NCBI GenBank assembly: GCA_001464615.1
Contig: LNFI01000016.1
Span: 248,001-312,000, forward strand
Source: Sphingomonadales bacterium Ga0077557
Lineage (GTDB): Bacteria > Pseudomonadota > Alphaproteobacteria > Sphingomonadales > Sphingomonadaceae
DNA: 64,000 nucleotides
Reading direction: 5' to 3'
The translations under genes and the position numbers were made by a program. Under the pieces are notes generated by a model. It did not search any database. It had not been told where the DNA came from and worked only from the letters and a program-made list of their open reading frames with translations. Below, piece by piece: positions 30,956 to 45,423 of this stretch (position 1 is its first letter; every line of letters begins with the position of its first letter).

Positions 30956-31696
30956 ATGCCCGATCTTTCGATTTCCCCGCTGCCCATCACGGCCCCCACC
31001 ACTGCCGCTACTGTGCGGGTCTGGGATGTCCCGGTCCGCGTCTTTCACTGGGTGCTGGTCGTGACCATTTTGCTGGCGTTTCTGTCGTCGGAGGAAGGCA
31101 GCGCGCTTGCCCCCTGGCATATTCCGGCCGGCTGGGTCGCGGCGCTGCTGATCGCCTTTCGCCTGGTATGGGGCTTTGCCGGCGGCGAGCATGCGCGCTT
31201 TGCTGATTTCCTGAAGCCGGGCGAGATTGCCCATCATGTCGGCGGGTTGTTTTCGGGCAAACCCGAACGGACGATTGGCCATAATGCGCTGGGCGGGGTG
31301 GCGATCATCGCGCTGCTCGGCACGGTCGGCGGCATCATCTATACCGGCGCGACGATGCAGGGCGAAGCCGAAGGCGGCCTGCACGAGACATGGGCGAATG
31401 TGTTGATCGGCCTGATCGCGCTGCACGTGATTGCGGTGATCGCAATGTCGCTGTTGACCAAGGATAACCTGATCCGCGCCTTCATCACGGGTCGCAAGCG
31501 CGCAGACCTCCACCCCGGCATTTCTGATGCGCGGTCGCCCACGCCGCTCGGGCTTCCCATCGCGACGGTTGCGATTGGTGCCGCTGCCTATGGCATCACG
31601 CTGGTCGATCCGGTCGCGTTCTCGCCCGGCGCGCATGCCGAAGCGGGCGAGAATGGCGGTGGTGAAGCGGGCGAAGGCGCGGGCGACAATGACTAG
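30956..31696 (+). CDS. cytochrome b561/b6-type membrane protein
   Basis: VWDVPVRVFHWVLVVTIL, APWHIPAGWVAALLIAFRLVWGF, LHVIAVIAMSLL; GGAGG ribosome binding site before ATG 30956. Confidence 0.88.
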   Translation: MPDLSISPLPITAPTTAATVRVWDVPVRVFHWVLVVTILLAFLSSEEGSALAPWHIPAGWVAALLIAFRLVWGFAGGEHARFADFLKPGEIAHHVGGLFSGKPERTIGHNALGGVAIIALLGTVGGIIYTGATMQGEAEGGLHETWANVLIGLIALHVIAVIAMSLLTKDNLIRAFITGRKRADLHPGISDARSPTPLGLPIATVAIGAAAYGITLVDPVAFSPGAHAEAGENGGGEAGEGAGDND

Positions 31697-39463: not shown

Positions 39464-39685
39464 GGCGTCAGATAACGGCCCAAAACGACGAAGGCCAGTC
39501 CGCACGAACGGCACGGAAAATTTCGTTCGTTCACAACAAGCTAGGCTTTGGGGGCACATTGCCGCGACATTGGAGGCGAAAAATCCGGCCGATATGCGTC
39601 CCAATGCGGCAGGCAAAGCGCCAAAAAACGCTTGTCAAACGATAGAGTCACGAAGATGTAACAATCGCTCGGGGGGAATGAGTTT

Positions 39686-41185
39686 TTGGAAGGGCACATG
39701 ATCAGATCAGCGATCCGATCGTTGGGGATACCCGTCGGCATTCTCCTCGTCACGCTTTGCGCCATTCAGCTGCTGGTCGCTGACATGCTCGGCGCGCTGA
39801 CGGGTGTGTCAGCGCGCGCCATCTATCTCAGCTTTGCGATCATCGGGTGGATCGCCGGTGCGATCATCATCTGCCGGTTGACCGAAATGCTGTTCTGGAA
39901 CCAGCTCGGCCGGTCCAGTGGCCGCAAAACACCGCGCTTGTTGATCCAGATTACCAATGTGCTGATCTATTGCACCATGGGACTGGCAATGGCGGCAACG
40001 CTGTTCAACATCCCCCTCACCGGCGCGATTGCCACGTCGAGCGTCATCGGTCTGGTGATCGGCTTTGCAGTGAAAAGCCTGATCTCGGACACATTTTCCG
40101 GCATCGCGCTCAACCTCGACAGCGGTTTTGGCATCAACGATTTCGTCCAGATCCTCAGCCGTGGCACCACGACCCGCATTCAGGGCCGGGTGACCGAGAT
40201 CAACTGGCGCAGCACCTATATCCTCACGCCCGAAAATTCGATGATGGTCATCCCCAACACGGTGATGAGTGAATCGATCGTCCTCAATTATTCGAAGCCC
40301 GATCGGATGGGCGAATTCGAAATGGTCGTGTCGCTCGATTTCGAAGTGAGCACTGATCGCGCGCTCCGCGTGCTGTCATCGGTGATCTAGGCGGCCGCAC
40401 GGGAAAATGACGCCATCTGGGACGTGAAAGCGCGGATATCGGAGGCAACCGGCAACGGCATCAATTACAAGATCAAATATATGCTCGATCCGGCCAAGCT
40501 GGCACCGGGCAAGGCGAAGCATCTCATCCTCGGGCACTTGCTGCGCCATTTGTCGACCACGGGCCTGGCGCTCGCGCACCCAAAAATCGACAACTGGACC
40601 GCCGAACCGCAGGATTATGGTCGATTTGCCGAAGCGCCGGGCAGCCGGTTCCGTCTGCTCAATCAGGTCCAGCTCTTTGCGGATATCGATTCCGCAACAC
40701 TCCACCAGCTGGCGGACCGGATCGCCCGCCGGAATTTTGTCGCAGGCGAGCGGCTGATCACGGCAGGCGACCCTGGCCAGTCGATGTTCGTGATGAGCGA
40801 AGGGCTGGTATCGGTCCGAATCCCGCAAGGCGACAGTGAGCTGGATGTCGCCGCATTTTCGCCCGGCGATTTCTTCGGCGAAATGTCTTTGCTCACCGGC
40901 GAACCGCGCAGCGCGACCATCGTCGCGGTGACCGACACCATCGCCTATGAAATCGACAAGACCGATATCGAACATCTGCTCGACACCTGCCCGTCGGCCG
41001 CCGAAACGTTGAGCATGGCCGCCGCCGAACGTCGCCTTTCGTCGGACAAGGCCCGGTCGAGCAAGCCCCCTGAACAGATCGAAGCAGAGCGCATCTCGAT
41101 GGCCGGCAAGATCCTGGCGGGAATGACCCGCTTCCTGGCGCGCAAACTGCCCAAACCCGAACTCGCGCAGATTGGTTCACGATGA
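39686..41185 (+). pseudogene. MscS-type mechanosensitive channel fused to a cyclic nucleotide-binding domain, interrupted by an in-frame TAG at 40388-40390
   Basis: ORF 39686-40390 (MscS: VIGLVIGFAVKSLISDTFSGIALNLD) and ORF 40424-41185 (cNMP: GDFFGEMSLLTGEPRSATIVA) are in the same frame, and translation continues uninterrupted past the single TAG. Confidence 0.75.
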
Positions 41186-42288
41186 TTGGCCGAATGAAAT
41201 CCCTCGGGTCGCTTCTGGCCGCCGCGGTACTGCTCAGCGGCTGCGCCTATGCGGGGCCGCGCGCGCTTATCGCCACCCGGCCGCTTTATAATCAGGCGAT
41301 CGCCCAGACCAATGACCAGGAACTGCTGCTGAATCTGGTGCGGATCCGGTACCGCGACACCACTTATTTCACGAGTGTGGAGCGGATCGCCGCGTCGCTC
41401 GAAATGAACATGTCGATCGGCAGCAGCGGCAGTTACAGCCAGACATCAAGCACTGCCGCCAAGGATACAATCGGCCGCGTCTTCGGCTTTGGGCCAGGCA
41501 CGATCGCGCTGAACGAAAAGCCAACGATCTTCTACGCGCCGCTGGAGGGCGAGAAGTTCGTTCGGCAGATGATGACACCGATCAACCCCGAAATTCTGTT
41601 CTTGTTGGTGCGGTCCGGCTGGTCGATCGACCGGGCATTTTCGATCGGGGTGATCGAGATGAATGGGCTGAAGAACGCGCCGACCGCGTCTGGCCCCGCC
41701 CCGTCGCGCGAGCCGGAATTTCGCGAATTTGCCGATGCCGCCAAATTGCTGCGCGCGCTGCAACGCGACAATCGGCTCGATCTGGTCCGCATCCCAGGCG
41801 AAAAGCCGAGCATCGAACTACGCTTCACGCGCGGATCGGCAGCGAGTGAAGAGGCGCTGAAATTCAAGTCACTGACCGGGATCGATCCGTCCGCCGATCG
41901 CATCCGCATCATTCTGGCAGGCGATGCGCCGGATACCAAATCGCTGGTCATCACCACGCGCCCAGTAATGGCAGCGCTGCATTTCCTGGCGACCGGGGTG
42001 GAAGTGCCGGGGCGTGATCTCGATGCCGGGCTGGTGCGCCGCACCACGCGGGCAGATGGCAGCCCGTTCGATTGGCAGGAAATGCTGGGTGGCGTGTTCC
42101 GCGTCCAGGTATCCGACCGGGAGCCGGTGGGAGCGACCACGATGGTCCACTATCGCGGCGCGTGGTTCTACATCGCCGATAATGATCTAGAGACCAAGTC
42201 GACCTTTGAATTACTGACCCAGGTCATCGCGTTGCATTCCGCCCCGCCATCCACCACCGCACCCATTGCCTTCACCGTCGGCAAATAG
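41182..42288 (+). CDS. hypothetical lipoprotein
   Basis: Lipobox LLSGC; 368 aa; ATGA overlap with the channel/cNMP reading frame. Confidence 0.8.
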   Translation: MIGRMKSLGSLLAAAVLLSGCAYAGPRALIATRPLYNQAIAQTNDQELLLNLVRIRYRDTTYFTSVERIAASLEMNMSIGSSGSYSQTSSTAAKDTIGRVFGFGPGTIALNEKPTIFYAPLEGEKFVRQMMTPINPEILFLLVRSGWSIDRAFSIGVIEMNGLKNAPTASGPAPSREPEFREFADAAKLLRALQRDNRLDLVRIPGEKPSIELRFTRGSAASEEALKFKSLTGIDPSADRIRIILAGDAPDTKSLVITTRPVMAALHFLATGVEVPGRDLDAGLVRRTTRADGSPFDWQEMLGGVFRVQVSDREPVGATTMVHYRGAWFYIADNDLETKSTFELLTQVIALHSAPPSTTAPIAFTVGK

Positions 42289-42336
42289 CCGCGACATAGC
42301 GCAGTTTGACCGCCGCGCGGGCGGTGCCTTCGGCCA

Positions 42337-43242
42337 TCACCCGCCCAGGTCGCGAAGAGCCGTCTTCAGGCGCGGCGCGACAAAATCCAGGAACGCCCGC
42401 AATTTGAGCGGCACCAGCTGGGCCGGGGGATGGACGAGATGGACGGGCATCGGATCGGGTGACTGGTCGGCCAGCAGCGGAATCAACTGCCCGTGACTGA
42501 TCGCCTCTGCCGCCTGATAGGATAATAACCGGGCGCCCCCCATATCCGCGACGGCTGCCGCGATCACGGCATCGGCGGTATTCCCCGCAAAGCGCGGCTT
42601 GATGGCGATGGTGCGGGCATCGGCCCCCACTCCGAAGGGCCAATGGCGCGCGGGCTGCAAGCCTTCGAACGCGATACAATCATGGACGGCAAGGTCCTCA
42701 GGCGTTTGCGGCGTGCCGCGCTGTTCAAGATAGGCCGGGCTCGCGCACACCACCCAACCCGTTTCTCCAATCCGCCGGGCGACCAGGCCACTATCGGGCA
42801 GGCGACCGACCCGTACCGCGACATCGACATGATTCTCGATCAAATCGACGACATAATCTGCTGCGATCACTCGCACATTCACTTGCGGATATTCGGCCAG
42901 AAAGGCCAACACCACCGGGGTCAGATAGGCCTTGCCAAAGCGCAGCGATGCCGTGACCAGCAACTCTCCGCTTGGGGTGCGATATTCGCCTGCCGCAGCC
43001 CGCTCGGCCTCTTCCAGCTCCCCCAGCACGCGCCGCGCGGCGGGCACAAACCCTTGACCAGCCTCTGTCAGCACGAGCTTGCGGCTGGTCCTGATCAGCA
43101 ATTGCGTGCCGAGATGGGCCTCCAGCTCCGAAATCTTGCGGCTGACGGTGGGCAACGGCATGCCCAGTCGCCGGGAAGCGGCGGATAAGCTGCCGCCATC
43201 GATTGCAGCCAATAGAGTGCGCAGCGCATCGAAACGATCCAT
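42337..43242 (-). CDS. LysR family transcriptional regulator
   Basis: MDRFDALRTLLAAIDGGSLSAASRRLGMPLPTVSRKISELEAHLGTQLLIRTSRKLVLT. Confidence 0.92.
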   Translation of the reverse strand: MDRFDALRTLLAAIDGGSLSAASRRLGMPLPTVSRKISELEAHLGTQLLIRTSRKLVLTEAGQGFVPAARRVLGELEEAERAAAGEYRTPSGELLVTASLRFGKAYLTPVVLAFLAEYPQVNVRVIAADYVVDLIENHVDVAVRVGRLPDSGLVARRIGETGWVVCASPAYLEQRGTPQTPEDLAVHDCIAFEGLQPARHWPFGVGADARTIAIKPRFAGNTADAVIAAAVADMGGARLLSYQAAEAISHGQLIPLLADQSPDPMPVHLVHPPAQLVPLKLRAFLDFVAPRLKTALRDLGG

Positions 43243-43547
43243 TCGGATATTCCATTTTGTGGAAGTCAACGTCTCAAAAATAACGTCTGCTGGCGATCAA
43301 TGGAAGTTACTAATTCAGCGTCACCGGCCAATCAGGCCTGTTGCTGAAAGGCCTGCTGCTGAAAGGATTGCCCTCCCCCTTCCCTGACCATCGCGGCGAT
43401 TGCCGACGGGCACGCATGACATCGGGCTGACCAGCCCAAAGCGTCGTGATCCTGCCCGTTCCCAGTCACCCAGCCAATTGCACCAGGCGCCACCCATTCG
43501 CGGTGGCGCCGTCGCCCCTCTGCACCCTGACCCCAAGGACGTTTGTG

Positions 43548-44534
43548 ATGACCACTCGACTGCCCCTTTTCCATGCCGTTTCGATCGCCGCCGTGCTGAT
43601 CGCAACCACCCTGACACCCCCCACCTCCACCCACGCCGCCGCCCCGGTTGCGGCCAGCAAAAAGGCTGCTTCAATGACCCAGACCACCTATCATTATGCC
43701 ACCGTCAACGGCCGCAAGGTCTTCTACCGCGAAGCCGGTGACCCGAGCTTGCCAACGATCATCCTGCTCCACGGCTTCCCGACCAGCAGCTTCATGTTCC
43801 GCGATCTGATCCCGCAGCTAGCCGGCAAATTCCATGTGATCGCGCCTGATTATATCGGCTTTGGCCAATCCGATGCGCCCTCGGCGACCGAGTTTGACTA
43901 TTCGTTCGACAATCTCACCACCCATGTGACTGGCCTGATCGATCAGCTCGGCCTGAAGTCCTACGTCTTGTATATGCAGGATTATGGCGGCCCGGTGGGT
44001 TTCCGCATCTTCACCCAGCGCCCGGACGCGGTGAAGGGTTTCGTGATCCAAAACACCAACGCCTATATGGAGGGCGTCGGCGATCCGCCAAAGCTGGTGT
44101 TCCTGCCGCTATGGGCGCACCGCGATGCCAAATCCGAAGAGGGCGCGCGCAGCTTCCTTCAGGCCGGCACCACCCAGTTCCAGTACACGGTGGGCGCGAA
44201 GAACCCCGACGCGATCAGCCCCGATAACTGGACGCACGACCAGGCTTTGCTCGATCGCCCCGGCACCGATGCCTATCAGCTCAACCTGCTGGAAAACTAC
44301 AAGACCAATGTCGCGCTGTACGACAGCTGGCATGCGGCCTTCCGCCAGCATAGCCCCAAGACGCTGATCCTGTGGGGCAAGCATGATCCCTTCTTCATCG
44401 AAGCCGGCGCGACTGCCTTCCTGCGGGATCTGCCCAAGGCAAAGCTGGTCTGGCTCGATGCCGGCCACTTCGTCCTCGATGAAAACGCCGCCACCGTTGC
44501 GGCTGAGATCAAGGCCGAATTCGCGACAAAGTGA
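43548..44534 (+). CDS. secreted alpha/beta hydrolase (haloalkane dehalogenase/epoxide hydrolase-like)
   Basis: Signal peptide; ILLHGFPTSSFMFRDL, nucleophile context YMQDYGGPVG, catalytic His DAGHFVLDE. Confidence 0.85.
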   Translation: MTTRLPLFHAVSIAAVLIATTLTPPTSTHAAAPVAASKKAASMTQTTYHYATVNGRKVFYREAGDPSLPTIILLHGFPTSSFMFRDLIPQLAGKFHVIAPDYIGFGQSDAPSATEFDYSFDNLTTHVTGLIDQLGLKSYVLYMQDYGGPVGFRIFTQRPDAVKGFVIQNTNAYMEGVGDPPKLVFLPLWAHRDAKSEEGARSFLQAGTTQFQYTVGAKNPDAISPDNWTHDQALLDRPGTDAYQLNLLENYKTNVALYDSWHAAFRQHSPKTLILWGKHDPFFIEAGATAFLRDLPKAKLVWLDAGHFVLDENAATVAAEIKAEFATK

Positions 44535-44605
44535 CTCTGTCCCCCGCCCGGGCGTCGCCCCCTCGACGCCCGGGCACCCAACCCGCTTTCTCAGGGACTC
44601 CCCCA

Positions 44606-44856
44606 ATGACCAAGACCTATCTCATCACCGGCGCCAGCGAAGGCATTGGCCTGGAAACCGCGCGGCTTGCCGTCGCATCGGGTGCTGCTGTGCTGATGGT
44701 CGCGCGTGATGCCGCCAAGCTGCAGGCCGCCGCCGCCGTTCGGTCATCATTGGACCAGTCGCCGCCATCGTGATGGGCACCGCCCCCATCCTGCCGCGCG
44801 GCTTCGATCTCGCCTTCATGACCCTGCTCTTCAAGGGCAAGCGGGCCGCTGCCTGA
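44606..44856 (+). pseudogene. remnant of an SDR oxidoreductase gene (N-terminal Rossmann segment, internal deletion/frameshift)
   Basis: MTKTYLITGASEGIGLETARLAVASGAAVLMVARD then frame loss; a second frame gives ...TAPILPRGFDLAFMTLLFKGKRAAA*. Confidence 0.55.
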
Positions 44857-44979
44857 ACGGCCCGTTCTCTGAAGGGATTGTGACATGACCACCCACCGAC
44901 GTGATCCGTTACCCAGCCCGTGGGGTGGATGGCGGCGACACGAAATCGGTCTAGCCCTGCCCCGCTCAGGAGAATGAAG

Positions 44980-45363
44980 ATGCTTGTTTCAGGATTTCTT
45001 GAACGCCCCGATTACCGGGTCGATCTGCTCCCGCGCTGCAATCGAGTGACGGTGCAAGTCGGCGACCAGACCGTGGCGTCGAGCAACAGAACGATTGTTG
45101 TCGATGAGCAAGGCCATGGGCTGGTTTTCTATTTTCCGCCCGTGGATGTTGATTTCGACCGGCTGGTTGCCATCGACCAGCGAACGACGTTCTGCCCGTT
45201 CAAGGGCATTGCCCGTTATCTTGCGGCCAGCACCGCGCCCGAGCTACCGATCGCCTGGGCCTATGCGGATCCCTTTGTTCAGGTGGCTGCCCTGGCGGGC
45301 TATATTGCCTTTTATCAGGATCGGGCGATCATCACGGTCGGTGGCGAAGACCCAATTGGATAA
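44980..45363 (+). CDS. DUF427 domain protein
   Basis: FCPFKGIARYL and AWAYADPF motifs; AGGAGA ribosome binding site. Confidence 0.8.
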   Translation: MLVSGFLERPDYRVDLLPRCNRVTVQVGDQTVASSNRTIVVDEQGHGLVFYFPPVDVDFDRLVAIDQRTTFCPFKGIARYLAASTAPELPIAWAYADPFVQVAALAGYIAFYQDRAIITVGGEDPIG

Positions 45364-45377
45364 CCGAGCATCAAGCG

Positions 45378-45417
45378 GTCGCCGTCGCCCGGCTCAATCA
45401 GCCGGAGTGACGGCGAC
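45378..45417. terminator. bidirectional terminator-like hairpin between convergent genes
   Basis: GTCGCCGTC-gc-CCGGCT caatc AGCCGG-agt-GACGGCGAC, between stops at 45363 and 45424. Confidence 0.65.
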
Positions 45418-45423
45418 GCCAGG

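Follow-up and report, generated by a model that had tools for sequence, protein, structure and literature searches.

A single in-frame amber codon, probably a recent nonsense mutation, in a bCNG-type MscS-like channel gene of a Sphingomonadales bacterium

In the genome of Sphingomonadales bacterium Ga0077557, the gene of a predicted MscS-like channel with a C-terminal cyclic nucleotide-binding (cNMP-binding) domain is interrupted by one amber codon, and this interruption is probably a very recent CAG to TAG nonsense mutation that truncates the channel. The gene lies on the forward strand of the 64,000-nucleotide stretch of DNA that was analyzed, referred to here as the window. In the initial annotation two open reading frames, 39686-40390 and 40424-41185, were placed in one frame, and reading through the TAG at 40388-40390 was said to give VLSSVI-*-AAARENDAIWDVKARISE. 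Both statements hold: the frame is open up to the TGA at 41183-41185 and the sequence is as quoted. The start had to be revised, since the listed TTG at 39686 is less suitable than the ATG at 39698, which aligns with the ATG of the ortholog, has GGAAGG upstream and is the likely start. From this ATG to the TGA the frame holds 494 residues and the single in-frame TAG, which is codon 231 and is followed by 264 open codons up to the TGA.

The proposed fusion of an MscS channel with a cNMP-binding domain is borne out by Pfam, which finds one domain on either side of the TAG: MS_channel_2nd (PF00924, 1.3e-12) on the 5' side and cNMP_binding (PF00027, 3.7e-22) on the 3' side. The 5' part (39698-40390, forward strand, 230 aa) matches the E. 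coli YnaI and MscS structures in phmmer and contains membrane helices, the MscS pore helix, the beta domain and the start of the alpha-beta domain. The 3' part (40391-41185, forward strand) contains the remaining alpha-beta domain, a linker, the cNMP-binding domain with its intact phosphate-binding cassette FFGEMSLLTGEPRSATI, the C-terminal helices and the TGA; R404, the Arg of this cassette, is invariant in 24 relatives. The structure model of the read-through protein, which is a rough guide only (mean pLDDT 76.8, pTM 0.51), places codon 231 inside a helix (219-236), after which come the remainder of the alpha-beta domain, a linker modeled with low confidence and the cNMP-binding domain. By comparison with the MscS fold, we take this helix to be the first one of the alpha-beta domain.

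The closest known relatives of this architecture are the bCNG channels, members of the MscS superfamily that are gated by cyclic nucleotides in bacteria. As in these channels, a single frame joins an MscS pore and beta domain to a cNMP-binding domain at the C-terminus; unlike theirs, the window frame is cut by a TAG between the domains, and gating of its product by a cyclic nucleotide or by tension is putative. Under the standard code, the two domains share a single polypeptide in the orthologs but not in the window genome. The locus should be annotated as one interrupted bCNG-type gene and not as two genes. The bCNG work of Caldwell et al. (2010, doi 10.1016/j.bbamem.2010.06.001) is cited in PMC4560390.

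A close ortholog of the channel was found in one other genome (G190) among the 295 of the genus; it is uninterrupted, 494 aa long and 84% identical to the window protein. Three genomes elsewhere in the family and four MAGs carry orthologs that are 53-58% identical, all of them uninterrupted, and as two of the family genomes agree exactly with two of the MAGs, the set including G190 amounts to six distinct orthologs. Plasmid records gave only relatives below 60% identity. At the stop site the six have CAG (G190), CAA, AAA, CAG, CAA and CAC, which is Gln in four, Lys in one and His in one, and judged from these sequences the position tolerates all three residues. A single transition separates the CAG of G190 from TAG. 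That the two window frames line up is not due to chance, because the nearest ortholog, 84% identical, continues without interruption from one half into the other and aligns gap-free in the region of the stop. Neither the frame itself nor the comparison with G190 revealed a second stop or a frameshift in the window channel gene. It had been considered that relatives might encode two separate proteins as well; they encode one uninterrupted protein, and a split gene or a shared stop was seen in none of the six.

The half downstream of the TAG had been described as free of decay, and the comparison with G190 agrees with this: dN/dS is 0.17 upstream of the TAG, 0.105 downstream of it and 0.10 in the adjacent lipoprotein gene, and the cassette is intact. 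After the TAG, 11 amino acid changes were assigned to the window branch and 10 to the G190 branch; before it, the numbers are eight and seven. Such near-equal numbers of derived changes on both branches indicate that constraint was kept until very recently, and by these measures the stretch after the TAG is under no less constraint than the one before it. If the downstream half has been neutral since the stop arose, the age of the stop is at most ~17% of the window branch (95% bound, omega 0.1), or at most 31% with an omega of 0.17; these bounds are rough, as the polarization relies on distant and noisy outgroups (orthologs that are ~55% identical). An old pseudogene is ruled out by the lack of decay after the TAG.

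Three explanations had been offered for the amber codon, namely a recent nonsense mutation, a sequencing error, and readthrough or split expression. The first is favored here, the second comes next, and split expression and programmed readthrough are disfavored. According to the favored explanation, a single C-to-T transition would very recently have turned the Gln codon CAG 231 into an amber codon. Ribosomes would mostly stop there and release a 230-residue fragment that breaks off within the first alpha-beta domain helix, so that the remainder of this domain and the entire cNMP-binding domain are missing. For this reason the fragment very probably has no function. Through a polar effect, the lipoprotein gene that overlaps the channel stop would probably also be translated less. 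This reading is built on the stop, the intact orthologs, the one-step codon difference and the undecayed downstream half; we infer that the organism truly carries this base. Other genes of this genome are terminated normally by TAG: in both the window and G190 a TAG closes the lipoprotein gene at the same position, and another TAG, at 31694-31696, is discussed below. Ordinary termination at the TAG accounts for all of the observations.

In-frame nonsense codons in genes under constraint are reported to occur widely among bacterial genomes and in most cases to be short-lived (PMC7918605). The window case resembles them in its single stop, its CAG/TAG exchange, its dN/dS well below 1 on both sides and its probably short life; it differs in that the window stop was seen in one genome only. 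The gene also looks like a young pseudogene, with an intact ortholog one nonsense substitution away, no other disruption, and little sign, if any, of relaxed selection downstream of the stop. The loss of the channel should be tolerable, since the genome has a second MscS-type gene with an intact 406-codon frame, and since 293 of the 295 genomes of the genus lack a close ortholog. We regard the finding as real but ordinary: the gene is a rare, accessory one for a channel, and it carries either one recent nonsense allele or an error. The undecayed downstream half would equally be expected from a base-calling error or from functional readthrough.

One possible option is that the TAG arose through an error in base calling or assembly, the channel gene of the organism itself being intact. 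We consider this unlikely, although it is the foremost of the alternatives. An isolated single transition in an otherwise constrained gene, with no relaxation after the stop, is what such an error would look like, and the assembly is a draft of 41 contigs. Yet in a genome scored as 100% complete and 0.06% contaminated, few single-base consensus errors would be expected to create a stop, and in-frame nonsense codons in constrained genes are reported to be common, if mostly transient (PMC7918605).

Another hypothesis is that near-cognate tRNAs decode the amber codon at a useful level, in a leaky and not a programmed manner, so that some full-length channel is made. Readthrough has been reported or inferred for some bacterial genes with nonsense codons: a wide occurrence of in-frame stops with dN/dS below 1 is reported in PMC7918605, and products of full-length size from nonsense-bearing Shigella genes in PMC11327459. 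The purifying selection after the stop is consistent with it, and a site that naturally accepts Gln, Lys and His would tolerate the inserted residue. Against it, the stop occurs in no ortholog, the RNA just 3' of the TAG folds no better than shuffled sequences (z = 0.35), which gives no sign of a stimulatory hairpin, and a tRNA with a CUA anticodon was not among the tRNAs read with ARAGORN, a search for the Rfam tRNA family and a pattern for the anticodon loop. The tRNA result is no more than suggestive, because the list is incomplete and misses four isoacceptors that should exist: tRNA-Gly(GCC), -Glu(TTC), -Ile(GAT) and -Ala(TGC). Altogether leaky readthrough seems improbable. An elaboration in which the amber codon is tolerated because of leaky readthrough and acts as an expression rheostat, providing a low dose of full-length channel together with a truncated subunit and also tuning the coupled lipoprotein, is more improbable still. 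Programmed readthrough or amber recoding would share with the window gene an undecayed coding sequence after an in-frame UAG; it is disfavored, because the stop is not conserved and neither a stimulatory structure nor a suppressor tRNA was found (with the same incomplete tRNA list). The tRNA search also gave a marginal tRNA-like match of 29.8 bits at G000:C5:18337-18418, which ARAGORN does not call a tRNA.

It is very improbable that the gene has become two functional genes, one for a short MscS and one for an independent cNMP-binding protein that begins at the GTG of the second listed frame (40424-40426, forward strand). The open frame from this GTG holds the entire cNMP-binding domain, but the GTG has no Shine-Dalgarno sequence (-0.9 kcal/mol, against a stronger random median of -1.9) and is not conserved as a start in relatives; it was rejected as a second start and is probably unused. 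No other in-frame start up to 40900 has a Shine-Dalgarno sequence, the cut would fall within a helix of the structure model, and no ortholog is split.

Five other adjacent in-frame pairs of open reading frames in the window were compared with Pfam; four of them plainly represent different genes, and for the fifth there was no match. The TAG at 31694-31696, between cytochrome b561-like and oxidoreductase frames, was considered as a parallel case and rejected; it is an ordinary terminator between two genes, because the relatives of the second frame begin at this point too, in open frames about as long as the relatives themselves. Counting such pairs across the whole window by codon score did not discriminate, since antisense frames in this GC-rich DNA also score well.

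A more promising lead than the stop codon is the lipoprotein gene that follows (41182-42288, forward strand), which may encode a conserved and probably coupled partner. Its start had been noted to overlap the channel stop, and indeed its ATG at 41182 lies within an ATGA; its own ribosome-binding site is weak. G190 has the same overlap, and so does G573, which belongs to another genus. The channel and the lipoprotein are likely to be translationally coupled, so that the premature stop probably lowers lipoprotein synthesis as well. The lipoprotein is 86% identical to that of G190 and 70% identical to that of G573, whose channel is 57% identical to the window channel. It has no Pfam or NCBIfam match and was absent beside the other four distinct channel orthologs in the DNA examined. 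It may be an unrecognized partner of the channel.

The rare channel-lipoprotein pair is present in three genomes of the family (window 39698-42288; L110 9972-12559 in G190; L158 in G573), and in two of them, the window genome and G190, it occupies different sites. The guaA locus of G190 is largely colinear with the window and lacks the channel stretch, the pair of G190 being located on another contig with other neighbors. The presence of the pair in two of the 295 genomes of the genus suggests lateral movement or frequent loss. Upstream of the channel gene, at 39620-39670 of the window, a promoter-like stretch, AACGCTTGTCAAA...GAGTCAC..AGATGTAACAAT, is conserved with G190. Beside guaA there is a variable slot (window 39499-45418), the flanks of which are colinear in G190 (up to 39498 on the guaA side and from 45419 on the other); in G190 the slot holds other DNA.
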